Below are positions 5,386 through 26,664 of a stretch of DNA of 26,665 nt, piece after piece. Source of the stretch: a virus; IMG/VR virus record IMGVR_UViG_3300033571_028691, positions 1-26,665 of that record. One strand, given 5' to 3'. The position numbers and the translations under genes were made by a program. Under the pieces are notes generated by a model, which was not told the origin of the DNA, searched no databases, and worked only from the letters and a program-made list of their open reading frames with translations. Position 1 is the stretch's first letter. Every line of letters starts with the position of its first letter.

Positions 5386-5407
5386 AAACCCCTCCAATTT
5401 TTGAAAA

Positions 5408-5678: not shown

Positions 5679-5714
5679 CAAAAACACAAAAAATTGATCC
5701 AAATCAATTCATTC

Positions 5715-5982: not shown

Positions 5983-6807
5983 ATGGAATTAAACAAAGTT
6001 TACTGTGCTGACAATTTACAAGTAATGCAATCAATGACAGACGCAAGCATTGATTTGATTTACATAGACCCACCTTTTAATACTAATAGAATTCAAAAAA
6101 CCGCAACAGCGCAATTTTCAGATTCTTTCGGTGGTCTTGAAGAATACTTGAATTTCATGAGGCCACGGTTGCAGCAGATGCATAGACTATTAAAAGAAAC
6201 GGGTAGTCTGTTTGTTCACGTCGACTATCGAGTTGTGCATTACTTAAAAATTGAGCTTGATAAAATCTTTGGCAGTCCCAAAAACTTTATCAATGAAATA
6301 ATTTGGCATTACGTGATAGCTGGCGGTAGAAATTCAAAAAGTTTTAAAAAAAGACACGATACAATTTTATGGTATGCAAAAGATATCAATAAATATTATT
6401 TTTTTGATAATCAAATACGACAGCCTTTTACACCTGATAACAAACTTACAAATAAATTTCATGGTACAAAACGTGATGAAACTGGTAGAGAGTACGTCGA
6501 AAAATGGGGAACATGTACCAAAAAAAAATACAGATACTATCTCGACAATGGAAAAATGCCTGAAGATGTGTGGTTAGACATCAAACCGCTTAACTCTGCT
6601 TCAAAAGAACGCGTTAATTATCCAAACCAAAAACCTCAAAAATTACTTGAACGTATTATTAAAGCCGCAAGCAAACCTGATGATATTATAGCAGATTTTT
6701 TCTGTGGCTCAGGCACGACTTGCAAGGCAGCAAAATCATTAAATAGAAAATATTTGGGAATTGATAGCAACCCGCAAGCTATTGACTCATTTCAAAAATT
6801 TTGCTAA
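5983..6807 (+). CDS. Orphan DNA methyltransferase, beta class (N6-adenine or N4-cytosine)
   Basis: 274 residues. Motif IV is near the N-terminus (LIYIDPPFNTNR, about 25-36), followed by a middle target-recognition region, and the SAM-binding motif near the C-terminus is DFFCGSGTTCKAAKSLNRKYLGID (about 238-262, key residues F-C-G-S-G). This order, IV before I, defines the beta class of the N6/N4 methylase family. DPPF rather than DPPY is common in adenine enzymes. No restriction endonuclease is adjacent, so it is probably a solitary enzyme protecting phage DNA or altering regulation. The ribosome site before ATG 5983 is weak. A strong terminator follows 33 bases after the stop, so it is a single-gene unit. 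Recognition sequence cannot be predicted. Confidence 0.85.
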   Translation: MELNKVYCADNLQVMQSMTDASIDLIYIDPPFNTNRIQKTATAQFSDSFGGLEEYLNFMRPRLQQMHRLLKETGSLFVHVDYRVVHYLKIELDKIFGSPKNFINEIIWHYVIAGGRNSKSFKKRHDTILWYAKDINKYYFFDNQIRQPFTPDNKLTNKFHGTKRDETGREYVEKWGTCTKKKYRYYLDNGKMPEDVWLDIKPLNSASKERVNYPNQKPQKLLERIIKAASKPDDIIADFFCGSGTTCKAAKSLNRKYLGIDSNPQAIDSFQKFC

Positions 6808-8093: not shown

Positions 8094-8609
8094 ATGACAA
8101 CAAGTTATATTGAAAACGACGGGCTTAAAATTTGTGCAAAATTTCTAAACAAATTTATAGCGTCAGATCCTTTAATAGATATGAGTTTTGATTTAGAAAG
8201 TGGTCTAGCAGCAAAAGAATTTTATGAAAAATTTAAAAATGATTTAAAATTTTTAAGCTGTATTTATGATAAAGAAAAATTAATCAATTTTAACAATTTA
8301 GCGTTATTTATTGCATTAAACTCTCACAGTAGCTTTCTCTGTGACGACGAAAAGACTTTACATATTAAAATTGCCAAAATTTGTTTGCCAAAATTTGAAG
8401 CTCTCATTAAAGAGAATCTCGACAATTTAGACAATCAAACAAGCATTGATGAGATATTTGAAACTCATTTTGCACATTTAGTAGCCCCAAAAAATCCTAA
8501 GGGTGGCAAATGGGATCTTCCTCGTATCGTGACACTTGCCGAAATAAAACCTTTTTTCGTTGATCCTAATAATATCGACGAATTGTTTAAAGCGCACAAA
8601 TTGGATTAA
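8094..8609 (+). CDS. Unrecognised protein, intact member of a tandem paralogue pair
   Basis: 171 residues, helical, acidic and lysine-rich, with no membrane segment. A core block EFYEKFKNDLKFLSCIYDKE then KLINFNNLALFI (about residues 43-75), and later IAKICLPKFEALIKE and IDEIFETHF, recurs in the frame immediately downstream (8641-8967), so the pair arose by tandem duplication. The ribosome site CAGGAG lies 11 bases before ATG 8094, and the start is four bases after the upstream stop. The C-terminal extension APKNPKGGKWDLPRIV is unique to this copy. No function is known to me; the family looks like phage-specific small helical proteins. Confidence 0.65.
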   Translation: MTTSYIENDGLKICAKFLNKFIASDPLIDMSFDLESGLAAKEFYEKFKNDLKFLSCIYDKEKLINFNNLALFIALNSHSSFLCDDEKTLHIKIAKICLPKFEALIKENLDNLDNQTSIDEIFETHFAHLVAPKNPKGGKWDLPRIVTLAEIKPFFVDPNNIDELFKAHKLD

Positions 8610-8967
8610 TCAGTGTAATTTTGATTATAAAGATAGTAAATTTGATGAAAAAATTTTTGATTTAGCAAACGAATTTTATGATGGGTTTATAAGTGATCCA
8701 ACATTTTTAAGTTTTATTTATGATGAAGAAAACTTAATCAATTTTAAAAATTTAGTTTTTATGATCGGTGAATTTTTTGAATTAAGTTACGACCTAAAAA
8801 TAAAATTAGCGCCACAAGTTGCAAAAATAGTTCATCCAAAATTTCTAGTTTCCATAAAAAAAGGTAGTGGAGATTTTAAGAACCATAAAAAATTAACTTA
8901 TAAAGAAATATTTGATTTGTATTTTGGTTTTGAAAGAATGAAAAGCTACTACTTCCTCGATAACTAA
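8560..8967 (+). pseudogene. 5'-truncated paralogue of the preceding gene
   Basis: From about 8641 the frame encodes FDEKIFDLANEFYDGF then FLSFIYDEENLINFKNLVFMI, IAKIVHPKFLVSIKK and KEIFDLYFGFE, which aligns along its length with residues about 33-130 of the preceding product. The part equal to the first about 30 residues of that product is missing. No ATG, GTG or TTG exists in frame between the upstream gene's stop and ATG 8761, which lies inside the conserved block. The only upstream start is a TTG at 8560 inside the previous gene, with no ribosome site. It is therefore a decayed duplicate, or is translated by an unusual route. The conserved reading frame without stops argues that decay is recent. 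Confidence 0.6.
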
Positions 8968-9689: not shown

Positions 9690-9964
9690 GCAATAATAAA
9701 GGCAGACCACCAGCACGCTGGGTTGACCAGTTAGCTGACGGGGAATATACAGTGCAAGATTTGATTGAGCTGACTGGTAAATCAGCACTTGCGACGCGTT
9801 GGATTATGCGTAAATACGCAAAAAGCGCACGCTATGTTTTAAATCCGAATGCTAAGGGTATTATTGTTTATTATCTTTGGAATAGAGAGCATTACATCGA
9901 TAAGCTAAAGAGTGCCGCGCAAGCTCGTAAGCTGCTAATCGACGCAACCCGCGGCACAAAATAA
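9686..9964 (+). CDS. Small DNA-binding protein (AT-hook-like plus HTH)
   Basis: 92 residues and strongly basic. The N-terminus NKGRPPARW resembles an AT-hook (GRP core). It is followed by a likely helix-turn-helix, EYTVQDLIELTGKSALATRW, and a basic C-terminal half with KLKSAAQARKLLIDATRGTK. Its ATG overlaps the upstream stop. It closes the rightward early operon and meets the leftward methyltransferase-like cassette tail to tail, with only an AAAATTA/TAATTTT weak dyad between. The motif pattern indicates DNA binding, most likely a transcription regulator or nucleoid-like factor of the phage; targets are unknown. Confidence 0.6.
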   Translation: MSNNKGRPPARWVDQLADGEYTVQDLIELTGKSALATRWIMRKYAKSARYVLNPNAKGIIVYYLWNREHYIDKLKSAAQARKLLIDATRGTK

Positions 9965-9981
9965 AATTAGCACAAATAATT

Positions 9982-10623
9982 TTACGCATCAAATTTTAAA
10001 CTTTCTAAAAAAAGTTCAGCATTATAAATTTCTTTGATATAAATCAATTGTTCTTCTTGACACTTTTTATAATAAGAACACCACGTCAAATCGATATCAA
10101 TTGGAAAATGCCCTAGAGTTTCAAACCACTCTTTACTTGCTTTGGTTTTGTTAGCATTTTTTCTAACAGTATCAGGGCAGCTCAACGCTGTTAGTGCTTC
10201 GTTTCTGTGAATCTGCCATTGGACTGCACAAATAAAATGCAGAAAAAAATCATAATGTTTTTTTATGTAGTCTTTAGAAATTTTGACAGCCAAATTTTCT
10301 TCAATAAATTGAAACGTCGCATCGATGATTCTAGAGCGACAGGCGAGGATATTATTGTAATCAATATCAATCGCCCATAATGTGTCTAACGTTGCTGTAA
10401 TGGCTTCAAAAATGCCTAAATTTTTTAATGCTTCAAGCCTACGTTTGTACATTGCAACAACAAAGTTGCCAGTTCCACACGTTGGCTCAAACAGACACAC
10501 TTCTAAATCAGCCCATACTTTTGGATTATTCTGACTCATCAAATCAAGCATCTCTTCGACAACATGCTCGGGCGTAAAGACTTCGCCAAATTCTTTTATT
10601 CGCTCTTTACTTTTACTTAGCAT
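9982..10623 (-). CDS. Short N6-methyltransferase-like protein lacking the NPPY motif
   Basis: 213 residues. KEFGEVFTPEHVVEEMLDLM (about 10-29) and motif I FEPTCGTGNFVVAMYKRRLE (about 45-64), then LWAIDIDYNNILACRSRI (about 87-104), are clear hallmarks of gamma-type N6-adenine methyltransferases: helix before motif I, SAM-binding loop, and acidic motif II/III region. The catalytic NPPY/DPPY motif IV expected about 40-80 residues later is absent, and the protein ends without a target-recognition domain. Short proteins of this type are found in phages; whether they methylate is unclear. It may bind SAM without catalysis, act as an antirestriction decoy, or be a truncated enzyme. The start overlaps the upstream gene by 11 bases, so the two are one leftward cassette inserted between rightward operons. 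Confidence 0.7.
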   Translation of the reverse strand: MLSKSKERIKEFGEVFTPEHVVEEMLDLMSQNNPKVWADLEVCLFEPTCGTGNFVVAMYKRRLEALKNLGIFEAITATLDTLWAIDIDYNNILACRSRIIDATFQFIEENLAVKISKDYIKKHYDFFLHFICAVQWQIHRNEALTALSCPDTVRKNANKTKASKEWFETLGHFPIDIDLTWCSYYKKCQEEQLIYIKEIYNAELFLESLKFDA

Positions 10624-10948
10624 TAAATAACTCTTGTTGTTTTTCTTTATTATTTAAAATAACTTTCCGCACTCGGATATTGATTAAAAATTCATCAGAA
10701 TCTTTATGCACTAAGTTTACGTGTGCGTGTGCAATATCTCTGACGACTTTCACGAGTCCAGATTTTTTATAAACCTTACCAAAAACGCCGAGGTCATAAT
10801 AAAATTTACCGCGTTTTAAAGAAATATTTTTATGTTCCGGGTATCTTTTTGGGATATTTTCCAATTCTTTTTTAGCACTCGCATAGTCATCAAACACTTC
10901 TAAAACATAAATAACTCGACTTTTTGTCCCAACGTAACAGTATATCAT
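10613..10948 (-). CDS. Unrecognised partner protein of the short methyltransferase
   Basis: 111 residues from ATG 10948, chosen over a longer frame (to 11023) because AGGAG lies five bases upstream. The N-terminus MIYCYVGTKSRVIYVLEVFD suggests a small alpha/beta fold, with a short helix ASAKKELENIPKRYP and a basic C-terminus VRKVILNNKEKQQELF. No known family is recognised. Its stop lies 11 bases inside the start of the methyltransferase-like gene, so translation is coupled. The pair is a compact leftward unit. A weak -35/-10-like pair TTGGCA and TAAGTT (16-base spacer) lies upstream near 10990-11016. Confidence 0.6.
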   Translation of the reverse strand: MIYCYVGTKSRVIYVLEVFDDYASAKKELENIPKRYPEHKNISLKRGKFYYDLGVFGKVYKKSGLVKVVRDIAHAHVNLVHKDSDEFLINIRVRKVILNNKEKQQELFNAK

Positions 10949-13847: not shown

Positions 13848-14095
13848 ACAACCGTGAAAAAATCCGCGCAATTATTGACCAGCAAATACAAAAACTTTAT
13901 GAAATTTCTGAAACTTCAAGCAAGCCATTATTTGATAAAGAAATTGACTCACTGGCTAAACTTGCAAAACTTGTTGAAGCAGAATCATTACTTGATAGCT
14001 TAAAAGACAAAACAAAATTTGATGATTTATCAGAAGAAGAATTGTTACTTCTTTATAATTTTAGAAAGAATCAACCCAATGGACAGAGTGACTGA
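13844..14095 (+). CDS. Probable terminase small subunit
   Basis: 83 residues starting at TTG 13844, with GGAG at seven bases. The product is a short charged helical protein (NNREKIRAIIDQQIQKLYEI, DSLAKLAKLVEAESLLDSLK) ending LSEEELLLLYNFRKNQPNGQ. Small helical proteins encoded directly before the large terminase usually recognise the packaging start site and help load TerL. It is shorter than many small terminases and I do not see a classical HTH, so the call rests mainly on position and overlap with TerL (17 bases). Confidence 0.55.
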   Translation: MNNREKIRAIIDQQIQKLYEISETSSKPLFDKEIDSLAKLAKLVEAESLLDSLKDKTKFDDLSEEELLLLYNFRKNQPNGQSD

Positions 14096-15476
14096 AAAAT
14101 TGTGGCAACGAGGCGAAATGAGCTTTTTGTTGCATGCAGCACAGAAACAAGTCTATGACAAAATATTAACAAGCAACGAGCAATTGCATTTGTTTTTAGG
14201 CTCAAGACAGTTTGGCAAATCATTTCTCTCTCTTGCTCTTGGCTTTCAACACGTCGCAAGCCCGCACACGATTAATAAACTCGTAAAGATTGCAGCGGGT
14301 ACACTCAAAGCGACAAACGATATCGTGAACGATAATATGAAATTTTTTATTGTGAGTGCACCACCGGGTCACATCAAACCGACAAAATCTGACAAGCGTT
14401 ACAAAGTTGGAACAAATGGCGAGATACGCTTGGGGATGATGGAACGTGCGCACGTCGATTCATTGCGCGGTGGGAATGCTGGGCTTTACATTCTTGAAGA
14501 AGCAGCAGCAGCGGTGAGTAGTGATGATTTTGAGTACGCATACAAAGCCGTAATCATTCCGCAGCTACTTCGCTCCGGGGGTAAGATTGTTATCATCACC
14601 ACGCCCTCAAAAAACCCTGATCATTACGTGCACTCTGTGATTCAACCGCAGTGTGAAAAAAAAGGCACACTTTACAAAGCGACTATCTTTGACAATCCAC
14701 AACTCACAACAGAGCAAATACAAAACGCTATTAATGCGTATGGTGGCGCTGACACTTTAGATTTTAGGCGTGAGTACCTGTGCGAAGTTGTGCGCGATGG
14801 ACGCTCATTGATTACGCCTGCATTTTCTGATGTGCGGCATATTACAAATCAAAGCTATGAGAGTGTGTATGCAGCAAACTGTTGGATAATCGGAGACACG
14901 GGAGGCATACGTGATAAGCACGTCTTACAAGTTTGGGGTCATCGAATTACAGACAATAAAAAATTAATCATTGCAGAGGTGATGTTTGATTCCAATACCA
15001 ACACGATAGTTTTGGGTGATATGATTAAACAACTCCGCACAAAATATCAAATAAAACCCTATCACATTTTTTTAGACTGCCATGGTCAGACTCAAGTCGA
15101 TCTCAATACTTTGTGTGATGTTTCTGTTACGTTACCGCCGAAAGTTGATCGAGACAATGCAATTATGGCTTTGAATTCGGCGTTCTTTCAAGATGAGATT
15201 TTTATCAATAAATCATGTGAGTTTACAATAAAAAGTTTACGCTCTTGTATGTTTAATAAAACACGCACAGACTTTGAACGAACAGATGAGTTAGGCCATG
15301 CTGATGCTGTGATGTGTGCTGTCTATGGTTTGCGTGTTGAAAAATTTATTGAGCGCTCTAAAATCATCACTAACTTTTCAAACTTTAGTCAAATGAGCAA
15401 TCAATCACCACAGACAAATTTAGAAAAAGTCACAAAAGCCCTTAGACCCTTTCACAAAAGCCTAGCAAATTTTTAA
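14079..15476 (+). CDS. terL: Terminase large subunit (packaging ATPase and nuclease)
   Basis: 465 residues from ATG 14079; the longer frame from 14019 lies inside the previous gene and adds an unrelated hydrophobic tail. The ATPase has Walker A-like GSRQFGKSFLSL (about 41-52), Walker B LYILEEAAAA (about 136-145), and a coupling-type stretch KIVIITTPSKNPDHY. The C-terminal RNase H-like nuclease has acidic positions in IIGDTGG (about 270), FLDCHGQ (about 332) and GHADAVMCAV (about 407). The enzyme pumps DNA into the procapsid and cuts concatemers. It is the last gene of the operon and its 3' end overlaps a leftward gene by 35 bases. The ribosome site is weak, consistent with coupling to the small subunit. 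Confidence 0.88.
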   Translation: MDRVTEKLWQRGEMSFLLHAAQKQVYDKILTSNEQLHLFLGSRQFGKSFLSLALGFQHVASPHTINKLVKIAAGTLKATNDIVNDNMKFFIVSAPPGHIKPTKSDKRYKVGTNGEIRLGMMERAHVDSLRGGNAGLYILEEAAAAVSSDDFEYAYKAVIIPQLLRSGGKIVIITTPSKNPDHYVHSVIQPQCEKKGTLYKATIFDNPQLTTEQIQNAINAYGGADTLDFRREYLCEVVRDGRSLITPAFSDVRHITNQSYESVYAANCWIIGDTGGIRDKHVLQVWGHRITDNKKLIIAEVMFDSNTNTIVLGDMIKQLRTKYQIKPYHIFLDCHGQTQVDLNTLCDVSVTLPPKVDRDNAIMALNSAFFQDEIFINKSCEFTIKSLRSCMFNKTRTDFERTDELGHADAVMCAVYGLRVEKFIERSKIITNFSNFSQMSNQSPQTNLEKVTKALRPFHKSLANF

Positions 15477-16359: not shown

Positions 16360-16941
16360 GTGTTAAGTTATTACGATTTGACTAGACAAGTGCATTATGA
16401 TCCCAAAACAGGAATTTTTACCTGGAAGATAAAAAAACGAAAAACTCGAAAAGGATCAGAAGCTGGTTTCTATGCGCCAAGTCGTCTGTACCGCTACATC
16501 AGAATTGATGGTAAAGATTATACTTGTCAGCGTATTGCATGGTTTTATATGACAAAAACTTGGCCAACTAAATTTGTTGGCTTTAGAAATAAAAATCCGA
16601 TGGATTTACGATTTTTAAATTTAATCCATTGTGATAAATATGATTTGCAATCCAACAGATCCAATTCACAACACCTCACAGGTGCACATTTCAGAAAAGA
16701 AAACAAAACCAAGCCGTGGAATTCAAGAATTTACTACAAAGGTAAGTGCATTTCCCTTGGTTATTTTAAAACAGAAAAAGAAGCACACAGGGCACACACA
16801 AGAGCAAAAAAGGATATACAAAGTGGAATTATCGACTTTGCTAAAGAAGTACCGAGTAAATGGCGAGACCTTTTATCACCACGCAGGACGGTATGCGAAT
16901 CAGCCCGTGGAGAAACGCAAACTGGTTCAAGAAATTCTTGA
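16360..16941 (+). CDS. HNH/AP2-type homing endonuclease-like protein with degenerate active site
   Basis: 193 residues from GTG 16360 (GAGGG at eight bases). The N-terminal part YDPKTGIFTWKIKK and RYIRIDGKDYTCQRIAWFYM with TKTWPTKFVGFRNKNPMDLRF follows the HNH endonuclease pattern. However, the usual H before R-x-AW is Q, and the usual (I/V)-D-H-x-N is VGFRN, so the catalytic His and Asp are gone. The second half GAHFRKENKTKPWNSRIYYK then GKCISLGYFKTEKEAHRAH (about 107-150) matches the AP2-like DNA-binding domain that often accompanies HNH homing enzymes. It probably still binds DNA but may not cut. It lies directly before the helicase and its 3' end overlaps that gene by 119 bases, suggesting an inserted homing gene later domesticated. 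Confidence 0.7.
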   Translation: MLSYYDLTRQVHYDPKTGIFTWKIKKRKTRKGSEAGFYAPSRLYRYIRIDGKDYTCQRIAWFYMTKTWPTKFVGFRNKNPMDLRFLNLIHCDKYDLQSNRSNSQHLTGAHFRKENKTKPWNSRIYYKGKCISLGYFKTEKEAHRAHTRAKKDIQSGIIDFAKEVPSKWRDLLSPRRTVCESARGETQTGSRNS

Positions 16942-18337
16942 AATGGGCGCAGAGCTTGAAGAAGTTGAACCAATAATCGAAATCCTCAAGCAAAAATGTA
17001 TTGAACGGCAAAAATTTTCCGATCAATCTTTTGATGAGATTGAACAAGTCATCCATTCATTTCATTACGTCATCGATAAATTCCAAATTGTTTTAAATAA
17101 AAATAATCCTGAACAAAAACTTATCTATTTGATTGAGGGAACACGAGCAAAACTATTGGCATCCTCACTCCCTGGCACAGATGAGCTAGTGCGGTTGCTT
17201 GCAAATATTTATCCTGAAGATATGGCGTTATTGCATAAAGAAATTCAATTGCGCACAGAAAAAAAGAAACGACACCATGTGACAATCGAGAGTTGCATTA
17301 AATTATTAGTCAACTCGATTATCAATGCACTATACACAAAAACTCCAATGGCAATTAATTATGATATCAAACCATTAACACTATCAAATAGTTCCGAATT
17401 TTCAGCGCACAAGTTGAATTATGAATACAAAGAAACACCACAACTCAATCCACATCTTAAAGAATTATTAGGGCGTATCACAGACAGTGATCGGTTGTGT
17501 GCGTTACTTTGGATTTGTTTTAATGGCCATAAATCGCCGTATGTTATTTATTTATACGGCGAGGGCGGCGAGGGGAAATCATCATTTACTGGAATGTTGC
17601 GGCGAAAAATTGGCAAAGATGTTGTAGCAAGCTTTGATAGCTCAAATCAATTTTCAAATTTTGGCATGTTCAATAAAGCGCTAATTGTTCTCTCTGAAAA
17701 TAACAATCCCCGAGTTTTGCAAAAAGCAGAAGTGAAACAATTAACAGGAGATAGTATTGTCAGCATTGAACAAAAAGGAAAAGATAGGTTCACAGGAACA
17801 TTGTCAGGATTATTGATAATTGACTCAAACGTACTCCCTGAAATAGACGGAGATTCCTACGAACTTCGAAGACTTCGTTTATTTAAATTTGAACCATTAC
17901 AAGCCACAGAATTTTATTCTAAAGAAATGTACGAGAGTTTTTTAGGAGAAAATTTTAATGACTTTTTAAATTATTGCAGAATTTGTTACGAAAACATCGG
18001 GCAAAATTGGACTGTGCTACCTAGCCCAAATCAACAAGCACAATTTAAAAGTTTACAAGACAAAGCACAGCTTGTCATGAATCAAGAATTGTGGGCTAAA
18101 CTGATTCGCTCTGGAGAATTTGCAATTGATCCCCGTTCTGAAATTGAAGAATCCACATTTTATAAAGCATTGCAAAACATTACAAACCTCAAAGAATTTA
18201 AAAAGAATTACGGACTTTCTAACTTTTTAAAATATTTAAAGCATGAACACGCCATCAAATCCGAGCATGGAAGAATTTATGGTTTGAAAGCCGTTGATAA
18301 AAAAGGCGTGTATTATGACCCATACCATACAAATTAA
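16823..18337 (+). CDS. SF3-type replicative helicase (D5/P4-like NTPase)
   Basis: 504 residues from GTG 16823, chosen because AAGGA lies nine bases upstream; the longer frame (from 16631) runs through the HNH gene. The AAA+ core has Walker A YLYGEGGEGKSSF (about 246-258), Walker B ALIVLSENN (about 287-295), KQLTGDSIVSIEQKGKDRF and the sensor/arginine-finger stretch GLLIIDSNVLPEID then ELRRLRLF. This is the superfamily 3 helicase pattern of phage and plasmid primase-helicases of the P4/D5 kind. I see no primase signature in the 245-residue N-terminus, so primer synthesis may come from elsewhere. It should unwind the phage origin or fork. It is followed by the M15 peptidase after nine bases. 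Confidence 0.85.
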   Translation: MELSTLLKKYRVNGETFYHHAGRYANQPVEKRKLVQEILEMGAELEEVEPIIEILKQKCIERQKFSDQSFDEIEQVIHSFHYVIDKFQIVLNKNNPEQKLIYLIEGTRAKLLASSLPGTDELVRLLANIYPEDMALLHKEIQLRTEKKKRHHVTIESCIKLLVNSIINALYTKTPMAINYDIKPLTLSNSSEFSAHKLNYEYKETPQLNPHLKELLGRITDSDRLCALLWICFNGHKSPYVIYLYGEGGEGKSSFTGMLRRKIGKDVVASFDSSNQFSNFGMFNKALIVLSENNNPRVLQKAEVKQLTGDSIVSIEQKGKDRFTGTLSGLLIIDSNVLPEIDGDSYELRRLRLFKFEPLQATEFYSKEMYESFLGENFNDFLNYCRICYENIGQNWTVLPSPNQQAQFKSLQDKAQLVMNQELWAKLIRSGEFAIDPRSEIEESTFYKALQNITNLKEFKKNYGLSNFLKYLKHEHAIKSEHGRIYGLKAVDKKGVYYDPYHTN

Positions 18338-18346
18338 AGGTAAAGT

Positions 18347-18811
18347 ATGCCATTAATTACAAGAGACAATTATTTAAAAATGAGAGATATTACATACCAT
18401 AAAGATTGGAATAAAAAACTTGAAAAAACAATGGAAGCCACAATCAATCAAATCAATGAATTTTTAAAAGAAATTAAATTTTCAAATGTGGAAGTTGTAA
18501 GCGGCTGGCGACCACAACAATTGAATGAAAGCATTAAAAATGCCGCTACGCAAAGTAAACATATTACATGCCAGGCTGTTGATTTACTGGATTTAAAACC
18601 GTTTCCATTAATGCATGCAATCTTAGAGAATTTAATTGCGGCAGAAACTCATGGTGTTTACTTTGAAGATTTTTCATATACGCCAAGCTGGGTTCATATA
18701 CAAGTTGTGCCGCCTAAATCGTTTCGTAGGGTATTTGTTCCAAATTCCAATCCACCTCTTGTTGCTAATAAATGGAAAGGTCTTGAGTATTATGACAGAC
18801 AGTTTATATAA
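18347..18811 (+). CDS. M15-family peptidase (endolysin candidate)
   Basis: 154 residues without signal peptide. SGWRP (52-56), SKHITCQAVDLLD with H72 and D79, and WVHIQ with H117 give the zinc-binding His-Asp-His set of the M15 D-Ala-D-Ala / L,D-peptidase family, and the spacing fits the M15_3 type found as phage endolysins. It would cleave peptidoglycan peptide cross-links once the holin opens the membrane. Ribosome site AAAGG precedes ATG 18347. It is unusual to find it in the replication operon, between helicase and polymerase, rather than beside the holin at 534-923; expression timing would then be early, with activity controlled by holin release. The next gene starts 20 bases before its stop. 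Confidence 0.8.
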   Translation: MPLITRDNYLKMRDITYHKDWNKKLEKTMEATINQINEFLKEIKFSNVEVVSGWRPQQLNESIKNAATQSKHITCQAVDLLDLKPFPLMHAILENLIAAETHGVYFEDFSYTPSWVHIQVVPPKSFRRVFVPNSNPPLVANKWKGLEYYDRQFI

Positions 18812-19349
18812 AGTTGGCGATAAATTTAAAATAATTGAAACAACAAGTGATAAGTTTTTAATCGGAGATATCTTTAAACTGCATGAGATCCGTTTAGGTC
18901 ATTATCCATATTTATTAAAAAGAAAAAGTTATTCGACTATTTTTGAAATTGAGCTCAATGCTGAACTCGTGAGTGTTTTCGGTGTAAAATTTGAGCCTCT
19001 CAAAAAACTTTTTGATGGAATTAGCACAAAAGATGATATGACGCTCAAACCACATTATCGAGCGATTAGTCCTTATTTATTGCAGAATATGGCGATGATT
19101 TTTAGACAAGGAATTAAAAAGCACGGCCTCGATTCCCATCGTAATATTGAAGCAAAACATGCTGGAGAAATTATTGATGCATTGTTGCGACACATTGAAA
19201 AAATCAGGCTTGGGGAATTTTTTGATTTAGAAAGTAAGCAACCACACCTTGCACATGCTGGCTGTAATCTTTCAATTCTCATGAATATCTATGCAAAATA
19301 TGGTGCCGAAGAATTGATTAAATCAATAAATGGGGAATTGAATGAGTGA
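18792..19349 (+). CDS. dATP/dGTP diphosphohydrolase N-terminal-domain-like protein
   Basis: 185 residues from ATG 18792 (GAG four bases upstream; a longer frame from 18636 is in the previous gene). The last two thirds, LKPHYRAISPYLLQNMAMIF, QGIKKHGLDSHRN, ALLRHIEKIRLGEFFDLESK and HLAHAGCNLSILMNI, follow the pattern of the phage dATP/dGTP diphosphohydrolase N-terminal family (formerly DUF5664): P-x-x-L, G-x-x-K(Y/H)G, LLRH, GE-x-x-D-x-ES-x-x-x-HLAHA-x-CN. This is a helical domain linked to nucleotide-pool control in phages. The first about 75 residues are extra and unassigned. The ATG of DNA polymerase lies eight bases inside its end, so stoichiometric coupling with the polymerase is likely. 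Real substrate is not provable here. Confidence 0.65.
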   Translation: MTDSLYKVGDKFKIIETTSDKFLIGDIFKLHEIRLGHYPYLLKRKSYSTIFEIELNAELVSVFGVKFEPLKKLFDGISTKDDMTLKPHYRAISPYLLQNMAMIFRQGIKKHGLDSHRNIEAKHAGEIIDALLRHIEKIRLGEFFDLESKQPHLAHAGCNLSILMNIYAKYGAEELIKSINGELNE

Positions 19350-21276
19350 AGCTGTGCTTGATTTTGAATTCTTTGGTGCAAACAACGAACACCCAACGTT
19401 AGTGTGTGCGGCACTAGCACATAAGACCTACTGGCTCTTGGATAACTCGGATACAACACGTTTTAAAAATGATTTAAAAAAATTTAAAAAGCTGATTGTT
19501 TATTACGGAGTTGCAGAATCTCGTTGTTTACTTGCTCTTAAAATCAATCCCTTAAATTTTGAATGGGTTGATTTGTATGCAGAGTTTAAGATGTTGCAAA
19601 ACTCAAACAATCAATATCTTTATGGCACTTATATTGATAGTGCAGGGCTTAAGAAATTCTCAGAACCCAAAAATTTTCGTGAATATATAAATCAAGTAAA
19701 TAACGAAGATGACGATGAAGAAATGCTGAAGCATAACAAAGTACCCTCAAATTTAATTAATGCAGTATTTAAAATGACGCAACACGTTTTAAGTTCTTTG
19801 CAAAAAAATCAAATGAGAGAAATCATCATTTCAGGAAACGTCGAAAATATCACAAACCATAAAAAAGAAATTATGGAATATTGCTTGAGTGATGTTTCGT
19901 TTCTTTATGCTGTGCGTAATAAAATTGAGTTCGAGTATTATAGGCTAGGACTACGAAACTTTGAAGAATCTATACTTGATCGTGGTTTGTATTCAGCGTG
20001 CATTGGGATTTGTGAGCAGATAGGAATTCCCATCAATAAACAACTGTTGGATAAAATTATTGCAAAGACTCCTGAAATTATTAAAGACTCAAGAGATGCT
20101 GTCAATGCATTATCCTCATTTCCAATTTATATCCCTGAAATTCCCGCCACAGAAAAACATTTTAAAAATGGTGCTGTAAAAATCATCAAAAGCAAACCCG
20201 AACGACGCGACAACAAAGCAATTCAAAAACTCATTGAAAGTTTTGATATTCCCGCTTGGCCAAAAACAGAAACGGGCTTTTATAAAACAGATTCTGACAC
20301 GATAGAAAGTTATAGAACGATTCCCGTTATTGAAGAGATGTATAAGTGCAACAAAACCGAATCATCTTTAAAATGGTTTCGTGAAAAAAATTCCGACGGG
20401 TTTTTTGCCGCTTATGATTTTAAAAATGACGTTGTCAGACCCTTTTATGGAATTTACGGCACACAGACGGGACGTAATGCCGCCAAAGCGAAAACGTACC
20501 CATTGGCGATGAGTTCCTGGTTGCGTGCGATTATTCAACCAAAACCAGGAACTGTCATCATTGCAGCAGACTTTAGTCAACAAGAAATTGCTGTTGCAGC
20601 GTGGCTCTCTCAAGACAAGAATTTAATCAACGCTTACAATTCAGGTGATGTGTACTTAGAGTTTGCAAAACAAGCGGGCGCTGTGCCCATGGATGCAACA
20701 AAGAAAACCCACGAGCGCGAGCGCGACCTTTTTAAATCAACAAAGCTTGGCTTGCAGTATGGGATGGGTGCTGAAAAGTTACGATTGAAGCTCACATACG
20801 ATTGCAAACGGACTGTGTCGCTTGAAGAGACTCAAGCATTAATTACAGCACATAAAACTGTGTATGCAGAGTACTGGAATTGGGTTTATGAAATTAGCAA
20901 GCAATACAAAAGCCGCGTGCCGCTTGTCACATCTGATGGTTGGGTTTTGTGGACTGACAACCCCATTATGACAAGCGTGCGCAACTTCCACGTTCAAGCA
21001 CACAGTGCCAGCATTACGCGTCAAGCTGTAGTCGATGCGTGCAAAGCAAATTTGAAAGTGATGTCAAGTTTGCATGACGCGCTTTATATTATCTCGCAAG
21101 AACCGACAAAAGATTTGATTATTCTCAAGCAAATCATGCGCAACGCAACAGAAAAAATACTCGGTGAAAACTGTATAGAAATACGAATTGATGATAAAAT
21201 CTTAACAGATTCAGAAATATGGGTTGAAAAAAAAGGACAAGCCGATTGGTCTAAAATCAAAACACACATCATTTGA
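19342..21276 (+). CDS. polA: DNA polymerase, family A, with 3'-5' exonuclease domain
   Basis: 644 residues. Exonuclease motifs: VLDFEFFG (5-12, D-x-E), and EYCLSDVSFL (about 179-188). Polymerase motifs: A, AADFSQQEIAVAAWLS (about 408-423); B, RDLFKSTKLGLQYGMG (about 461-476); C, SLHDALYI (about 575-582). This is a phage replicative PolA without a 5'-3' exonuclease domain. At the O-helix site that is Phe762 in E. coli Pol I (Tyr526 in T7), this enzyme has Leu (K-STK-L-GLQYG). Leu at 762 is reported in viral PolA surveys to associate with temperate or slower replication, which suits a phage-plasmid. The second exonuclease motif is less clear (YYGVAESRCL). It starts inside the end of the diphosphohydrolase-like gene. 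Confidence 0.9.
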   Translation: MSEAVLDFEFFGANNEHPTLVCAALAHKTYWLLDNSDTTRFKNDLKKFKKLIVYYGVAESRCLLALKINPLNFEWVDLYAEFKMLQNSNNQYLYGTYIDSAGLKKFSEPKNFREYINQVNNEDDDEEMLKHNKVPSNLINAVFKMTQHVLSSLQKNQMREIIISGNVENITNHKKEIMEYCLSDVSFLYAVRNKIEFEYYRLGLRNFEESILDRGLYSACIGICEQIGIPINKQLLDKIIAKTPEIIKDSRDAVNALSSFPIYIPEIPATEKHFKNGAVKIIKSKPERRDNKAIQKLIESFDIPAWPKTETGFYKTDSDTIESYRTIPVIEEMYKCNKTESSLKWFREKNSDGFFAAYDFKNDVVRPFYGIYGTQTGRNAAKAKTYPLAMSSWLRAIIQPKPGTVIIAADFSQQEIAVAAWLSQDKNLINAYNSGDVYLEFAKQAGAVPMDATKKTHERERDLFKSTKLGLQYGMGAEKLRLKLTYDCKRTVSLEETQALITAHKTVYAEYWNWVYEISKQYKSRVPLVTSDGWVLWTDNPIMTSVRNFHVQAHSASITRQAVVDACKANLKVMSSLHDALYIISQEPTKDLIILKQIMRNATEKILGENCIEIRIDDKILTDSEIWVEKKGQADWSKIKTHII

Positions 21277-21288
21277 GAAAGGTTATTG

Positions 21289-21642
21289 ATGCAAACAGAA
21301 TTTGTCAAAACTGAAAGCAAAACGATTTTTAAAAAAGCGCCATCGCTGAAAAATCAACCAGTAAATGGTGAGCTCTTTACTCTGAATGAAGCAGTGACAG
21401 GGACACTCTCAAATATTTTTGAGAATCAAGACGGGCAAATTATTTTTCTCAAAACACCCACTGGAGATGTGGGAGTTCCTTTGTATTCAGGGCTGAAATT
21501 TTTTATTTATCATAAGAAGTATAAATACGGCGATATTGAGAAAGTGGGCAAAGAAAAAGGCGATCCAATTACGATTGTTTATCTTGGTACGAAAATGAGC
21601 CCAAAATCGAATAGACTCATGCACAACTTTTTTGTGGAGTGA
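21289..21642 (+). CDS. Unrecognised replication-operon protein (117 residues)
   Basis: ATG 21289 is preceded by AAAGG at six bases. The middle part (VNGELFTLNEAVTGTLSNIF, DGQIIFLKTPTGDVGVPLYS) has the strand pattern of a small beta-barrel, and the C-terminus is basic with GTKMSPKSNRLMHNFFVE. Position between DNA polymerase and a RecE-type exonuclease suggests an accessory such as a single-strand-binding or polymerase-associated factor. I cannot confirm an OB fold, and there is no acidic SSB-type tail. Overlaps the area of the next start. Confidence 0.6.
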   Translation: MQTEFVKTESKTIFKKAPSLKNQPVNGELFTLNEAVTGTLSNIFENQDGQIIFLKTPTGDVGVPLYSGLKFFIYHKKYKYGDIEKVGKEKGDPITIVYLGTKMSPKSNRLMHNFFVE

Positions 21643-21647
21643 ATACT

Positions 21648-22433
21648 TTGACTGATGCTGATTATTACAAGCTCGATTGTCTTAGCTTTTCAAAACTCAA
21701 ATACATTTTACATTCACCGCGTAAATTTTTTCAAAATCAAGAAACACCTTTTGCGGGAACGGCTGCAACAAATTTAGGCAATGCGATTCACTGTTGGATA
21801 CAAAATCAGCAAGAGCGCGTGAGCTTTCTGCCTGACTTGTCTCACGTCAAAACGCGCGACGGCAGAATAGCCCGAACACCGCAAAGCACAACCGAGGGAA
21901 AGCAAATCATTGAAGACTTTAAAAAAACTGTGCCGGCAGACAATTTTATTTTGTCTTGCGATTGTCTCCCTATTTTGATTAATCTCTATAATCATTATAA
22001 ACAGAATTACGAAATTCAAGAAATTATGAGCGACTTCATGAATTTTGAAACGCCTTACTTTGCAGAAATTGACGATTTAAAATTTAAGGGCAAGTTAGAC
22101 GCGGAAAATCGCAACTATATTATCGATTTTAAAACAACGTACAAACCCGCGTCAAAATATTCTGTTGCAAAACATCTCATATACGACGAGTATTATCATA
22201 TGCAACTTGCAATCTATGGGTTGCTAAAAGCACGCAACGAAGAAAAAGATTTTAGAGATTATCATTACAAAATTATTTTCTTTGAAACCGAGCCACCGTA
22301 TGATGTAAAAATGTACACAATAAGTCATTTTACAATTCAGCAAGGGTTGGATTTACTCACTTCTGCTATCAATAAATACAAACACTATATCATCAATAAA
22401 AACCCTCTCTATGAGTTGAGCGAAACGATATGA
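21648..22433 (+). CDS. PD-(D/E)XK exonuclease (RecE-like)
   Basis: About 261 residues. LSFSKLKYILHSPRKFF near the start, TNLGNAIHCWIQNQ, FKGKLDAENRNYIIDFKTT (about 147-165; catalytic D and D-x-K), and YHMQLAIYGLL form the pattern of phage PD-(D/E)XK nucleases of the RecE C-terminal/DUF3799 type. Such enzymes resect double-strand ends 5'-3' for recombination or end processing, usually with an annealase; no obvious RecT or Beta protein is in the window. GTG 21639 also opens the frame, but GGAG lies at eight bases before TTG 21648 and overlaps the GTG, so I prefer TTG. The stop overlaps the next ATG as ATGA. Confidence 0.8.
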   Translation: MTDADYYKLDCLSFSKLKYILHSPRKFFQNQETPFAGTAATNLGNAIHCWIQNQQERVSFLPDLSHVKTRDGRIARTPQSTTEGKQIIEDFKKTVPADNFILSCDCLPILINLYNHYKQNYEIQEIMSDFMNFETPYFAEIDDLKFKGKLDAENRNYIIDFKTTYKPASKYSVAKHLIYDEYYHMQLAIYGLLKARNEEKDFRDYHYKIIFFETEPPYDVKMYTISHFTIQQGLDLLTSAINKYKHYIINKNPLYELSETI

Positions 22434-22912
22434 TAAAAATTCCTACAATTATTGCAATCGACCCCGCGTCAAATAAAGCGGGAGTTGCATTGTATTATAA
22501 CGAAATTATCCGCTCGGCATTATTGACGGGCTATGGGAATTGGACGCAAAGAATCACACAACAGCGCCAACAGCTCGAATTATTTTTAAATCATTATTTA
22601 CCGGAAAATCAAATTATCAATCATCTTGTTGTAGAGAACGTTGTAGGTTTTCGCAATTCAAAGCTTAGTTATTCTGTGGGTGCGTTGTGCTCATTGCCAT
22701 GCATTCAGAGTGAACTAAACCTGATGGCACCATCTTGTTGGAAGAAAATTGTGAAAAAATGTGGCGGCGGAAAAATCCAAAAAGGGTTTGCAGCGTTACG
22801 TTATGTGCGGCCGGCGTACCCGCAAGTGTCTGATGATGAGGCCGACGCTATCTTAATGTTACTTGCTTATCTTGAGAAAGGCTTTACAGATGAACAGTAT
22901 ACCGATTACTAA
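22430..22912 (+). CDS. RuvC-like Holliday junction resolvase
   Basis: 160 residues. IIAIDPASNKAGVAL (D11), HLVVENVVG (E69), and VSDDEADAILMLLAYLE (D135/D136 and D139) supply the four acidic positions of the RuvC/RNase H fold, with the typical (I)-(D)-P-(G/A)-S start. The enzyme would resolve four-way junctions from recombination-dependent replication before packaging. Length is close to bacterial RuvC. It is coupled to the upstream exonuclease (ATGA) and overlaps the downstream Orn-like gene by 23 bases, so the three nucleases are one unit. Confidence 0.8.
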   Translation: MIKIPTIIAIDPASNKAGVALYYNEIIRSALLTGYGNWTQRITQQRQQLELFLNHYLPENQIINHLVVENVVGFRNSKLSYSVGALCSLPCIQSELNLMAPSCWKKIVKKCGGGKIQKGFAALRYVRPAYPQVSDDEADAILMLLAYLEKGFTDEQYTDY

Positions 22913-23480
22913 TATCTTATTTTTAGATCTCGAAACAACAGGGCTTGATTGTGCAAAGCATTATATTTTAGAAGTTGCAATTCTTCCAGCACAATTGCAT
23001 GAAGAAAACTTTTTCTGTAATAAAGAGAATTTGTTTACGGCTCTGTTGAACTTTCACGTTGAAAATTTCAAAGAGAATTTTGACCCAAAAGCTCTTGAAA
23101 TGCACGAAACAAATAATTTGATTCAAGATATTTTAAATTCTGATATTAAAAAGTGGGAACTAAAAGAACTCGAGCAAGAGTTGATTAAACAAGTCAATAA
23201 TACTTTTGGAAAGTATGCAATGGGCATTCAATTAGCCGGAAATTCCGTGCATTTTGATTTGCAATTTATCAAACATCATATGCCCACATTTGCAAAACGT
23301 TTGAGTTATCGAATTTTAGATATGAGTACATTCCGCACACTCGCAACAGCACTTTGTAATTATAAATCAGAACTCAACCCAGCGCACAGAGCTAAAGAAG
23401 ATGTTTTGTATTCTTACAGTTTAATGCTTGATTTTATCAAAAAGTTGAGACACAGCGAGACTAATCGAAGCTTAAATTAA
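22890..23480 (+). CDS. Oligoribonuclease-like DEDDh 3'-5' exonuclease
   Basis: 196 residues from ATG 22890 (AAGG at eight bases). ExoI is LFLDLETTGLD (D13, E15), exoII is AGNSVHFDLQFIKHHMPTFA (D123), and exoIII is HRAKEDV (H166, D171), so all DEDDh residues are present. The stretch GNSVHFDLQFIKHHMP with RILDMSTFRTLA matches bacterial Orn (GNS-x-x-x-D-x-x-F-(L/I)-x-x-x-MP and LD-(V/M)-ST) better than DnaQ proofreading subunits. Orn degrades di- and oligoribonucleotides and pGpG. In a phage it may recycle RNA primers or nanoRNA, or interfere with nucleotide signalling. The polymerase has its own exonuclease domain, so proofreading is a less likely job. It ends nine bases inside the convergent TrfA-like gene. 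Confidence 0.75.
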   Translation: MNSIPITNILFLDLETTGLDCAKHYILEVAILPAQLHEENFFCNKENLFTALLNFHVENFKENFDPKALEMHETNNLIQDILNSDIKKWELKELEQELIKQVNNTFGKYAMGIQLAGNSVHFDLQFIKHHMPTFAKRLSYRILDMSTFRTLATALCNYKSELNPAHRAKEDVLYSYSLMLDFIKKLRHSETNRSLN

Positions 23481-24608
23481 TCCGCCATCTTTTCTAACAA
23501 ACAATTTTGAATTTTCTATTTTATATTCAAAATTGGTATTTTCTGTTACGTAAGCATTTTTAATCAATTCAAGAGCAGAGCGTAAAGACCTGTTGAATTC
23601 TTTTTGAATCAAACCGCTTCTTGATAAGTCGTGTAAATATTCAAGCGAAAAAGGGATGGGTTCTTTATGTGAAGCGTAAAAATGAAAAATCCATAAAGCC
23701 AATTGATTTTGGCCAAGTTGCTTTCTAATATTGATATTGATAAATGTATAGTCATCTGTATCTCTAAACACGCAAAGTAAATGATTATCAAATTCTAAAT
23801 AATAAGCGTTGGGTTCATCTTCGATCAAAGCAAACGATTGAATAAGATGACTCATATACATTGCGTGTTGCTTGCCTTTGACTTGCACAACCGCGAGTAC
23901 AAGTTTAAAAATTCGATTTTTCACTTGGTCGCGGGTTTCTGTACTATCTGTATACCCTAAAAATTTACACACTTCATAAATTGTCACACGGACACGATTA
24001 CTTCCTTTAGACTTTTCTTTAAATAAATAGACCAATGCATCCCAAACTATGAGATCCAATTGGTTTAATTCTTCTCCCGAAAACAGCACTTGATACTGCG
24101 ACATCGACAGTATCTCTTTATTTTTGACAGTAAGATGAACCCCTCTTTTTTGAATTCCGAACAAAGCAGAACGTAAAAAAACGTTGGGAATTGCTCGACT
24201 TAAAGGTTCTGTGACGGGGATAAATTCTGTTGTCGGAAGAGCATTAATTTTTTCTTTGATGCTATCAAAATGTTTATTGAGATAATCTTTGAACTCTTCA
24301 GTATTATTCTTTAAATAGTCGTAGAGCCTGTAAGGTTTTGTTTTCAAGTCGCTAATTGTTTCATGTGTCGTGAGTATCTTTTCTTCTAAAAATCGAAACC
24401 CTAAAATTCCAAAATCATTGAGACAAAGATTGACGACGTGTTTAAATGCATTGTAACTAAAATAATTAAAATTGCCTTTAAAATCTTGAAAGTTGTCAAA
24501 AAACAAAGCCCCACAAATACCCATCGCTTGGTTAAAGTGTGGATGTTGTTGAGTATTGTCGTTTTTAATTGAGATTCTCTTGACTGTCTGACTTTTTGTA
24601 ATTAGCAT
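23472..24608 (-). CDS. trfA: TrfA-family plasmid replication initiator
   Basis: 378 residues. AIPNVFLRSALFGIQKRG (139-156), FSGEELNQLDLIVWDALVYL (176-195), VTIYEVCKFLGY (208-219), and QLGQNQLALWIFHFYASHKE (297-316) with LEYLHDLS follow in order the signatures of the TrfA replication initiator family of broad-host-range plasmids (RK2 type). TrfA binds iterons, melts the AT-rich origin and loads host helicase. The first about 130 residues (including ICGALFFDNFQDFKGNFNYF) are extra relative to the core. ATG 24608 has GGAGG at seven bases, but that site sits in a hairpin. Iterons lie 158 bases upstream. Its presence strongly supports plasmid maintenance of this phage. Gene symbol given by family. 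Confidence 0.85.
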   Translation of the reverse strand: MLITKSQTVKRISIKNDNTQQHPHFNQAMGICGALFFDNFQDFKGNFNYFSYNAFKHVVNLCLNDFGILGFRFLEEKILTTHETISDLKTKPYRLYDYLKNNTEEFKDYLNKHFDSIKEKINALPTTEFIPVTEPLSRAIPNVFLRSALFGIQKRGVHLTVKNKEILSMSQYQVLFSGEELNQLDLIVWDALVYLFKEKSKGSNRVRVTIYEVCKFLGYTDSTETRDQVKNRIFKLVLAVVQVKGKQHAMYMSHLIQSFALIEDEPNAYYLEFDNHLLCVFRDTDDYTFININIRKQLGQNQLALWIFHFYASHKEPIPFSLEYLHDLSRSGLIQKEFNRSLRSALELIKNAYVTENTNFEYKIENSKLFVRKDGGLI

Positions 24609-24615
24609 AAATCAA

Positions 24616-24670
24616 CCTCCGTGTTTATAGCTATTTTAAGAAAATTAAATATACACAGAGGCTTTTTTTT
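24616..24670. promoter_or_regulatory. Hairpin over the initiator ribosome site; terminator on the plus strand
   Basis: In the leftward initiator mRNA, CCTCTGTGT (24661-24653) pairs with ACACGGAGG (24624-24616), with three more pairs after a two-base bulge, so the GGAGG ribosome site is buried. On the plus strand the same stem is followed by nine T (24662-24670 region), a terminator for rightward readthrough from the 16.3-23.5 kb operon, which would otherwise pass antisense through the initiator gene into the origin. Confidence 0.6.
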
Positions 24671-24748
24671 TGCCAAATTTTTCTTCTATAAAAATTCCTG
24701 CACAATTTTTAATCAAATATATCGCATCATTTTTAAGCATATTTAAAA

Positions 24749-25000
24749 CCCACTAGATCGGGGTTTATACACCCACTACCGACTTGATTATACACCCACT
24801 ACCGACTTGATTATACACTTTTGATTCCATTTTTTTAAAAACCGTTTTTGAAAAATAAATCAATAATTTCATATTTTTATTTCAAAATTAAAAATTCGCT
24901 CCAGTATCTTATAGTTTTATATATATATATTTAATCATTTTTTATTCTTTTTAATCAAAAAAAATGCACAAAAAAGAAGCAAACATAGTCTTAGGTATGC
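24749..25000. other. Probable plasmid origin of replication: iterons and AT-rich region
   Basis: Two exact 23-bp direct repeats (24766-24788 and 24789-24811) each begin TATACACCCACTACCGACTT; a partial third, TATACACTTTTGAT, follows (24812-24825), and CCCACTAGATCGGGGTT precedes them as a degenerate fourth. Counting the preceding T, each unit contains TTATACACC, one base off the DnaA-box consensus TTATNCACA. About 170 bases of extreme AT, including TATATATATATTTAATC, follow as the likely unwinding element. Iteron length of 22-23 bp and position upstream of the initiator gene are standard for TrfA/Rep-type plasmids. Number of full iterons (two) is low. Confidence 0.75.
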
Positions 25001-25076
25001 TATAAATAAACCTAAAACCATATCATTTCATGTAGCAGTTTCATTTTTTTTCTTCAAAATTTTGAGGCCACAGGAG

Positions 25077-25196
25077 ATGCAGCTTCGAATGAAAAAATCG
25101 AACCCAAGAATTTTTTGTAATTGCAATTTTAAATTTGGTGAGACTCAAAAAATAAAAAATTTAGACGCTTTTAAGCTCATAGAGAAAAAAATATAG
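25077..25196 (+). CDS. Possible 39-residue basic peptide beside the origin
   Basis: The frame encodes MQLRMKKSNPRIFCNCNFKF and a lysine-rich end. An AGGAG touches the first ATG (too close) and lies 12 bases before the second (25089), so initiation is not convincing. CNC might bind metal but one motif is not evidence. The rest of 24826-25254 holds no other supported gene; a TTAGGT/ACCTAA hairpin lies near 24991-25015. Confidence 0.2.
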   Translation: MQLRMKKSNPRIFCNCNFKFGETQKIKNLDAFKLIEKKI

Positions 25197-25254
25197 CAAA
25201 GATGAATCATGAATTATGCAGTTATTCTTTTTCTTTGTATTGACTTAAAAATAG

Positions 25255-26664
25255 TTAATTTTGCGATATGCTTGGTTTTGAGGCAAGATACAATAGAACT
25301 TCGGGATTTATGCCACTTTTTGATGCAAATTGCTTTACAGACATTGGCACCTTATTAACTATATTATTGCCAGTATTGATCCCCTTTGCAACTACCTCCC
25401 CTAACTTTCTTCTGCCGAAAGGTGTTAGCAATGATGCTGCCATGAATGCCCCAGGGCTTACCTGTTGCTGGTTTGCTGAATAAGCCCCAGCACCTGTTGC
25501 CCCTACAATACCACCCAAACCAATCGCTGAATTAAGGCTCTTGTTGTTCAGGTTTTGCAAAGCTTTTCCGATCTGACTTTGCATCGCATAGTCTTTGACA
25601 AATTTCGGGTAGGCGCGATCTTGAATTTTTGATTCTAAAATTTCATTTAAAGTTTTCTTTATTTTTCCTAGAGCTGCAGCGTCAACTTCGTCCATTCCAG
25701 CGCGTGCTTTTTTAATGTTTGAATTCAAAAATGAAATTGAACGTGCTAAGTCTGTGCCGCTTACATTTTTAAGTTTATCAGATTTACCAAGCAGATTACT
25801 CTCTAAATCTTTTAGCGCACGAGTAACGGCGGAATTTTCCGGAATATCTTTTAATTCGTTTGGATTAAATGATTTTTTTACGTTAGCAAGAATTTGAGGA
25901 GCACTAAATGGCTCTGTGACGCTCTCTCTTAAAGCGCCAATTTGTTGACCTGTTGTTTTTCGTGAAGCATCCAACATTTTTTGACGACCAGGTGTTGTCG
26001 AAAAAAAATCTGCATATTTGTTTTTTAAAATATACTCTGCCAAGTCTTTCTCTTGTTTTTCACGCATCTCCAGTGGCATGTTTTTTGAAATTTTATTGAG
26101 TAATCCTTTATCAAACCCGACACTTTTTAATGCGTTGTCAGTTTTGATTTTATCAAGAGATTCTCCAATTTTCCCAATGCCTTTTCCTGCTAATCCAAAC
26201 GCTCCTGAAATTGCGCCACCCGTTGCGGCACCTTTTGCTTGTTGCAACGCATCACCCTCTGCACTACCTAAACCCGCAAGTGCACCTTGGGCAACCATAG
26301 AGGGAATTGTCACCAAACTTTTCGCGCCAATAGCTGGTAAACCTGATGCAATCTCGCCGACCATTGACGACCCAGGGTTGGATTGTTGTAATTGCTTTTG
26401 ATATGCACGTGAAGCATCCCGATCAACTTTATAACCAGTTTGAAATGCTTTCTTAACACCCTCAAAACCTTCTCCCTCTGGTTTAGGTAACATGCCAAAA
26501 GCTTGTTGTCCTGCACGCTTAACTCCGCCTAAAACTCCCTCAATCTCATCTAAAAAATTAAAAGTTGCACCACGCGCAGCACCAATTCCAGCGGCTTCTA
26601 ATTTTTTTGCAAAACTATCATTGTTACTTTTGGGTTGTGCTGTTTGTTGTTCCAATTTCTGCAT
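25255..26664 (-). CDS. Glycine-rich virion/ejection protein (5' end at window edge)
   Basis: 469 codons are visible; the ATG at 26664 is one base from the window edge, so the true start may lie beyond. The N-terminal part AGIGAARGATFNFLDEIEGV is a pattern seen in phage internal-virion or DNA-injection proteins. It is followed by GVKRAGQQAFGMLPKPEGEG, and by long Gly/Ala stretches with glycine-zipper spacing (GALAGLGSAEGDALQQAKGA, GGAISGAFGLAGKG) that can insert in membranes. A charged helical middle (about 180-370) and a second Gly/Ala segment GLGGIVGATGAGAYSANQQQ follow. It is probably one of the proteins ejected to form the DNA conduit. It is leftward, as are the capsid genes, consistent with one late operon around a circle. 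No clear terminator follows; TTGACTTAA at 25240 lies just after the stop. Confidence 0.6.
   Translation of the reverse strand: MQKLEQQTAQPKSNNDSFAKKLEAAGIGAARGATFNFLDEIEGVLGGVKRAGQQAFGMLPKPEGEGFEGVKKAFQTGYKVDRDASRAYQKQLQQSNPGSSMVGEIASGLPAIGAKSLVTIPSMVAQGALAGLGSAEGDALQQAKGAATGGAISGAFGLAGKGIGKIGESLDKIKTDNALKSVGFDKGLLNKISKNMPLEMREKQEKDLAEYILKNKYADFFSTTPGRQKMLDASRKTTGQQIGALRESVTEPFSAPQILANVKKSFNPNELKDIPENSAVTRALKDLESNLLGKSDKLKNVSGTDLARSISFLNSNIKKARAGMDEVDAAALGKIKKTLNEILESKIQDRAYPKFVKDYAMQSQIGKALQNLNNKSLNSAIGLGGIVGATGAGAYSANQQQVSPGAFMAASLLTPFGRRKLGEVVAKGINTGNNIVNKVPMSVKQFASKSGINPEVLLYLASKPSISQN

Follow-up and report, generated by a model that had tools for sequence, protein, structure and literature searches.

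Why does a tailed phage that encodes its own helicase and DNA polymerase also carry a TrfA-family plasmid initiator with an origin, and is the phage maintained as a plasmid? We addressed this question in the whole virus record IMGVR_UViG_3300033571_028691 (the window; 26,665 bases, no end overlap), an end-truncated contig that holds most of a tailed-phage genome. We consider it likely that this is a tailed phage of Silvanigrellales that is kept as a circular plasmid and whose replicon cassette is exchangeable. A first-pass annotation, made from the letters alone, had proposed a phage-plasmid; it did not include the cassette exchange, the probable host or the toxin-antitoxin pairs that relatives carry. 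The presence of a TrfA replicon in a tailed-phage genome is well supported by our analysis, and a phage-plasmid, with plasmid maintenance as we infer it, is the best reading of this genome.

The phage genome, its relatives and its probable host

The window encodes the following phage proteins:

534–935, minus strand: holin (GTA_holin_3TM; PF11351, 61.5 bits; phrog_3427)
938–2284, minus strand: probable major capsid protein (59% identity to a Silvanigrella phage protein; weak PHROG head-protein match, E=0.006)
14019–15476, plus strand: terminase large subunit (phrog_2, 92 bits; PF03237)
16631–18337, plus strand: primase/helicase of the SF3 type (DUF5906), part of the module for phage replication (PF19263, 54 bits; phrog_864, DNA primase)
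18347–18811, plus strand: endolysin-like M15 peptidase (phrog_894; PF08291 just under the cut-off)
19342–21276, plus strand: family A DNA polymerase (PolA; PF00476, 77 bits; 54.5% identical to that of the Silvanigrella phage)
21639–22433, plus strand: PD-(D/E)XK exonuclease (DUF3799; PF12684, 62 bits)
22430–22912, plus strand: RuvC-like Holliday junction resolvase (phrog_827, phrog_159)

Among the terminase, scaffold, capsid and holin genes named in the first-pass annotation, the terminase and holin are recovered by profiles and the capsid by the weak PHROG match together with the 59% identity, and the scaffold gene is assigned by its position.

We found seven IMG/VR contigs of this phage family (G001 included), which align to one another as phage sequence. 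The start and end of one contig, G004, share an identical 123 bp, and this direct terminal overlap makes its map circular at 40,199 bp; G004 carries portal and tail-region genes and is free of bacterial flanks. When a handful of short terminase and capsid peptides served as search patterns, no relative came up among about 85,000 species genomes, and the capsid found no match in plasmids.

In the window, a 41-bp tandem repeat (positions 5714–5828; 2.8 copies, 79% matches) separates the serine recombinase gene from a DNA methyltransferase gene; the repeat is partly conserved in G003. The window has DNA methyltransferase genes at 5983–6807 (plus strand) and 9982–10623 (minus strand). An Eco57I-like methylase adjoins the second methyltransferase in G004 (25796–27380), which suggests a variable modification module. 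Two open reading frames of the early region (8094–8609 and 8560–8967) are 39% mutually identical over 101 residues and look like a tandem duplication.

The nearest named phage is Proteobacteria phage MWH-Nonnen-W8red 1 (CP017838, Silvanigrella aquatica). It shares with the window homologous capsid (59%), terminase (38%), PolA (54%), helicase and holin proteins, but differs in that it carries a tyrosine integrase, that TrfA was undetected in it and that its gene order around the helicase is not the same. Because this phage and the homologues of the swap partner described below point in the same direction, the hosts are probably Silvanigrella-like freshwater bacteria (Silvanigrellales). The deposited record CP017838.1 (L011) contains a duplicated stretch of about 4 kb (21111–25296 and 30344–34358) and runs of N, which are probably assembly errors.

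The TrfA replicon and its slot

The replicon and the two genes that flank it are:

22863–23480, plus strand: RNase T/DEDD exonuclease that flanks the slot on the left (PF00929, 42 bits)
23472–25227: exchangeable replicon cassette (initiator gene and origin), about 1.8 kb, from the comparison of relatives
23472–24608, minus strand: TrfA-family replication initiator, 378 aa (Pfam TrfA match, predicted fold, dN/dS)
24750–24818, minus strand: iteron array, three 23-bp direct repeats of the GTGTATA-N10-TAGTGG type (repeat search, shuffles)
24819–25227: AT-rich DNA adjoining the iterons, candidate unwinding element in the right part of the cassette
25255–26664, minus strand: probable internal virion protein that flanks the slot on the right (phrog_5880; possibly truncated by the contig end)

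The first-pass annotation had identified a TrfA-family initiator and proposed a search with the TrfA profile, and this search gave a match well above the gathering cut-off of 22 bits. PF07042 matched the open reading frame with 41.0 bits (E=1.6e-10) over profile positions 34–243 of 282; when run on whole genomes it scored 41.6 bits in the window, and none of the 14 control genomes matched. TrfA is also present by this profile in G001 and G002. A second, sub-threshold Pfam match of the open reading frame is to Rep3_N (WH1), and the NCBIfam models gave no family at E<=0.05. In PLSDB, the window TrfA matched 432 plasmid records, all at less than 60% identity; the matches listed are annotated as TrfA almost throughout, and plasmid TrfAs among the best of the 432 records are 26–33% identical to the window protein. 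In an alignment with eight plasmid TrfAs, the three signature peptides picked out in the first-pass annotation fall within conserved TrfA blocks, and the window protein has an N-terminal extension of about 125 aa that most of the plasmid proteins lack.

An AlphaFold model of the window TrfA, built from six sequences, has moderate to good confidence for residues 140–378 and poor confidence for the first ~140 residues. In the PDB, the model most closely resembles initiators with two winged helices (RctB, E=1.9e-8; RepE, as RepE54, about 1e-5), and the predicted fold is consistent with a TrfA-family initiator. The N-terminal region gave only keratin matches in a PDB sequence search, and these are spurious. 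Comparison of the window trfA with the G002 copy gives a dN/dS of 0.16; the gene is under purifying selection.

The iterons and the AT-rich element reported earlier were both recovered. The iteron units begin at 24818, 24795 and 24772 on the minus strand, the observed count of repeat pairs at a lag of 23 was reached in 0 of 500 dinucleotide shuffles, and the intergenic region beside the iterons has a GC content of 26%. The window has 3 units, G001 at least 4, G002 6 and G003 5, the last with the layout of the window and a different core. As G001 is 99.97% identical to the window and has at least four units, the array of the window may have been collapsed in assembly. Repeats of 22–23 bp are typical beside trfA: arrays of 22-bp repeats adjoin 8 of the 12 other TrfA genes tested.

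The slot sits between two convergent phage genes. At its left edge, the convergent exonuclease and trfA genes overlap by their stop codons, and the right edge of the cassette falls just before the virion gene. The left-flank exonuclease is conserved in relatives with either replicon, and the right-flank virion protein is 94% identical to a longer protein of G004. The contigs G004 and G005 cease to be homologous to the window at about 23,480, where the exonuclease gene ends, and homology restarts at 25228; in these two contigs the slot is filled by an unrelated gene (208 aa in G005) and 11-bp repeats. G002 and G005 are mostly 95–99% identical over the 14 kb leading to the slot and mostly 89–97% identical past it, and the slot of G002 holds a TrfA cassette about 91% identical to that of the window, whose left backbone is mostly ~74–83% identical to G002. 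These contigs show a clean cassette exchange between near-identical backbones. The start of the G003 contig adjoins the slot.

The alternative cassette

The only PLSDB homologues of the 208-aa protein that replaces TrfA lie on two plasmids of Pigmentibacter ruber (Silvanigrellaceae), both complete and circular. Among the phage-like genes of one of them, pGTC16762-2 (AP029161), are a terminase and a baseplate gene, and the homologue of the 208-aa protein on this plasmid adjoins ParA (AAA_31, 153 bits) and ParB; G012 and G013, viral contigs derived from isolates, represent the same type of phage-plasmid. Repeats with an 11-bp period lie upstream of the homologue gene in four among the Pigmentibacter plasmids, G012 and G013, and, in fewer copies, upstream of the slot gene in G004 and G005. 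By gene content, pGTC16762-2 (AP029161.1; L046/L047) is a circular 68-kb phage-plasmid, which has a HigB-type toxin gene as well as ParA/ParB.

The structural model of the 208-aa protein contains a probable winged helix and a coiled coil. It has no significant PDB match, with a weak likeness to MarR-type winged helices (E>=0.13), and searches of Pfam, PHROGs and NCBIfam with the sequence gave nothing credible. We think that the protein is probably an initiator, since pGTC16762-2 already has ParA/ParB beside its homologue, which leaves replication initiation as the likely role. On balance, we lean towards a dedicated slot in which two unrelated iteron replicons, TrfA/23-bp and an unnamed-initiator/11-bp type shared with local plasmids and phage-plasmids, interchange on genomes that are otherwise nearly identical and the incompatibility group would be swapped as a cassette. 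Members of the ~210-aa family were seen in G005 (21595–22221, minus strand; L022:1595-2221) and G004 (39456–40145, minus strand), with further members at L044:5974-6627, L045:5980-6615, L050:9992-10597 and L051:9914-10579. This family, found on Silvanigrellaceae plasmids and phage-plasmids, is a candidate for an undescribed plasmid initiator.

A more doubtful possibility is that the 208-aa protein is a centromere-binding or regulatory winged-helix protein and that maintenance modules, not replicons, are exchanged. Some partition systems use repeats of about 11 bp, which would suit this possibility, as would the MarR-type likeness and the lack of any Rep match in the three family databases. Two observations speak instead for an initiator: the 208-aa gene takes the exact place of trfA and its origin, and in pGTC16762-2 a ParA/ParB pair already adjoins the homologue.

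Maintenance genes and the mode of persistence

Two further loci of the window bear on maintenance:

3719–3767: site at which relatives carry toxin-antitoxin pairs (alignment breakpoints); the window has no pair here
4756–5397, minus strand: small serine recombinase (resolvase/invertase), candidate for multimer resolution (PF00239, 107 bits)

Members of the tyrosine integrase (PF00589) and large serine recombinase (PF07508) families are absent from the window, G001–G006, G012 and G013. ParA (AAA_31) was found in none of the window, G001–G006 and the Silvanigrella phage, and no repressor was identified. The toxin-antitoxin locus of the relatives is bounded by the scaffold-position gene on one side and the serine recombinase gene on the other and holds RelE with an HTH antitoxin in G003 and BrnT/BrnA in G004. 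The serine recombinase of the window is of a type widespread on plasmids. It had been described as a resolvase with res-like dyads, of which the recombinase stands by PF00239; its best model, below the cut-off of 272 bits, is the Mpi invertase (174 bits), and the dyads were not confirmed: an inverted-repeat scan and an alignment of three relatives gave no convincing res site upstream of the gene, where there is one imperfect 10-bp dyad.

The phage is probably temperate, and since its swappable slot holds a replication gene and an origin of plasmid type, the host probably retains it as a plasmid with an exchangeable maintenance part. We infer its extrachromosomal maintenance, the control of its replication, its host and the motive for the swaps along the following lines. 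In the prophage state, TrfA would bind the 23-bp iterons, melt the adjoining AT-rich DNA and recruit host replication proteins, so that the element would be held at a controlled copy number. Upon induction, the phage would switch to its own module of helicase, PolA and exonuclease. At the fixed slot, the cassette of TrfA and origin would be traded for a cassette of the non-homologous 208-aa DNA-binding protein and 11-bp repeats, a swap that probably escapes incompatibility with co-resident plasmids or phage-plasmids.

The same genes could belong to a strictly virulent phage in which TrfA and the iterons serve as a lytic-phase origin that recruits the phage helicase and polymerase and in which there is no plasmid state. 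Such a phage would need neither of the gene types that we failed to find (repressor and partition genes), it would make use of the phage's own PolA and helicase, and the cassette does adjoin the replication module. We nevertheless regard a virulent lifestyle as improbable. The replication modules of G002 and G005 are 95–99% identical despite their different origins, and the module is thus not tied to one initiator; the slot also accepts a gene family whose other members lie on plasmids and phage-plasmids; the toxin-antitoxin pairs and the serine recombinase suit plasmid upkeep; and the related Silvanigrella phage carries an integrase.

That integrase, and the fact that many temperate phages integrate, could instead point to an integrated prophage in which trfA is an accessory or a relic, but we judge this very improbable. 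The first-pass annotation had named chromosomal genes and att sites flanking the element as evidence against a phage-plasmid; neither an integrase family member nor a bacterial flank was found in the window or G001–G006. No chromosome-phage junction was seen in any relative, G004 closes into a circle, and the purifying selection on trfA argues against a relic. We give almost no credence to an assembly chimera, in which a plasmid trfA was mis-joined to phage contigs: contigs do break at the iterons (G001 ends inside them and G003 starts beside them), but the backbones of the window and G002 differ, their trfA copies differ at 8% of bases and the gene-end junctions are alike on both sides of the cassette, so that the edges are too consistent and trfA too diverged for the swap to be a mis-assembly.

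Comparison with known systems

The closest parallels each share some features with this phage family and differ in others. Neither the window TrfA nor a plasmid TrfA matched any of the 50,697 INPHARED records, and the literature searched does not describe a tailed phage-plasmid of the TrfA type. As no INPHARED phage matched TrfA, a TrfA-driven tailed phage widens the range of this broad-host-range plasmid replicon to include tailed phages, in this case ones that probably infect Bdellovibrionota. For Silvanigrellaceae, of which few genomes have been sequenced, the alternative cassette indicates a family of plasmid initiators that has yet to be described. Replication genes are known to move between plasmids and phage-plasmids, and incompatibility has been proposed as the motive (PMC10879196); with G002 and G005 as a natural pair, whose backbones are ~97% identical and whose replicons differ, escape from incompatibility as the motive for replicon exchange in phage-plasmids becomes directly testable.

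Phage-borne TrfA is not confined to this family, as a TrfA gene also occurs in at least one other, unrelated phage-like lineage (G011; L043:9842-10753), with 22-bp repeats at ~9699 and a gene content that includes rIIA/rIIB, a ribonucleotide reductase with an intein-like sequence, thymidylate synthase and anti-repressors. Another TrfA contig (L041; 18932–20638, with TrfA at 9875–10771) has a DarB-like antirestriction protein and an anti-repressor-like domain and is reminiscent of P1-type phage-plasmids.

RK2/IncP-1 and related TrfA replicons (PF07042) resemble the window cassette in having a TrfA homologue, 22–23-bp direct repeats and AT-rich DNA. The window differs from them in the 26–33% identity of its TrfA, the long N-terminal extension and the phage setting, and it is without conjugation or partition genes. 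pGTC16762-2, G012 and G013 share with the window family the likely host order, phage morphogenesis genes and a relative of the 208-aa slot protein accompanied by 11-bp repeats, and pGTC16762-2 is likewise a circular plasmid. They differ in size (63–68 kb), in their baseplate genes and other structural proteins, in that no TrfA has been shown in them and in having ParA, joined by a confirmed ParB in two of these three elements.

P1 and other phage-plasmids classically keep one replicon for the plasmid state and another for lytic growth; the two replication systems of the window, which the first-pass annotation had called unusual, are ordinary for such elements. P1-type phage-plasmids (PMC10879196) also resemble this family in their addiction modules and site-specific recombinase; P1 itself is of another phage lineage, uses RepA, not TrfA, and has parAB and Cre. 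Membership of the P1 family was considered and rejected.

A further precedent for two replication systems comes from mycobacteriophages with extrachromosomal prophages, in which a replication/partition cassette replaces the integration cassette (PMC7157519). These cluster A phages belong to another host phylum, and their cassette consists of parABS with RepA or an RNA-based origin, where the window family has TrfA with 23-bp iterons or the unnamed protein with 11-bp repeats and no ParA was found. The likeness lies in the arrangement: in cluster A, too, related temperate phages carry a plasmid maintenance cassette that replaces the integration cassette at a fixed place, and more than one type of origin is in use (PMC7157519).
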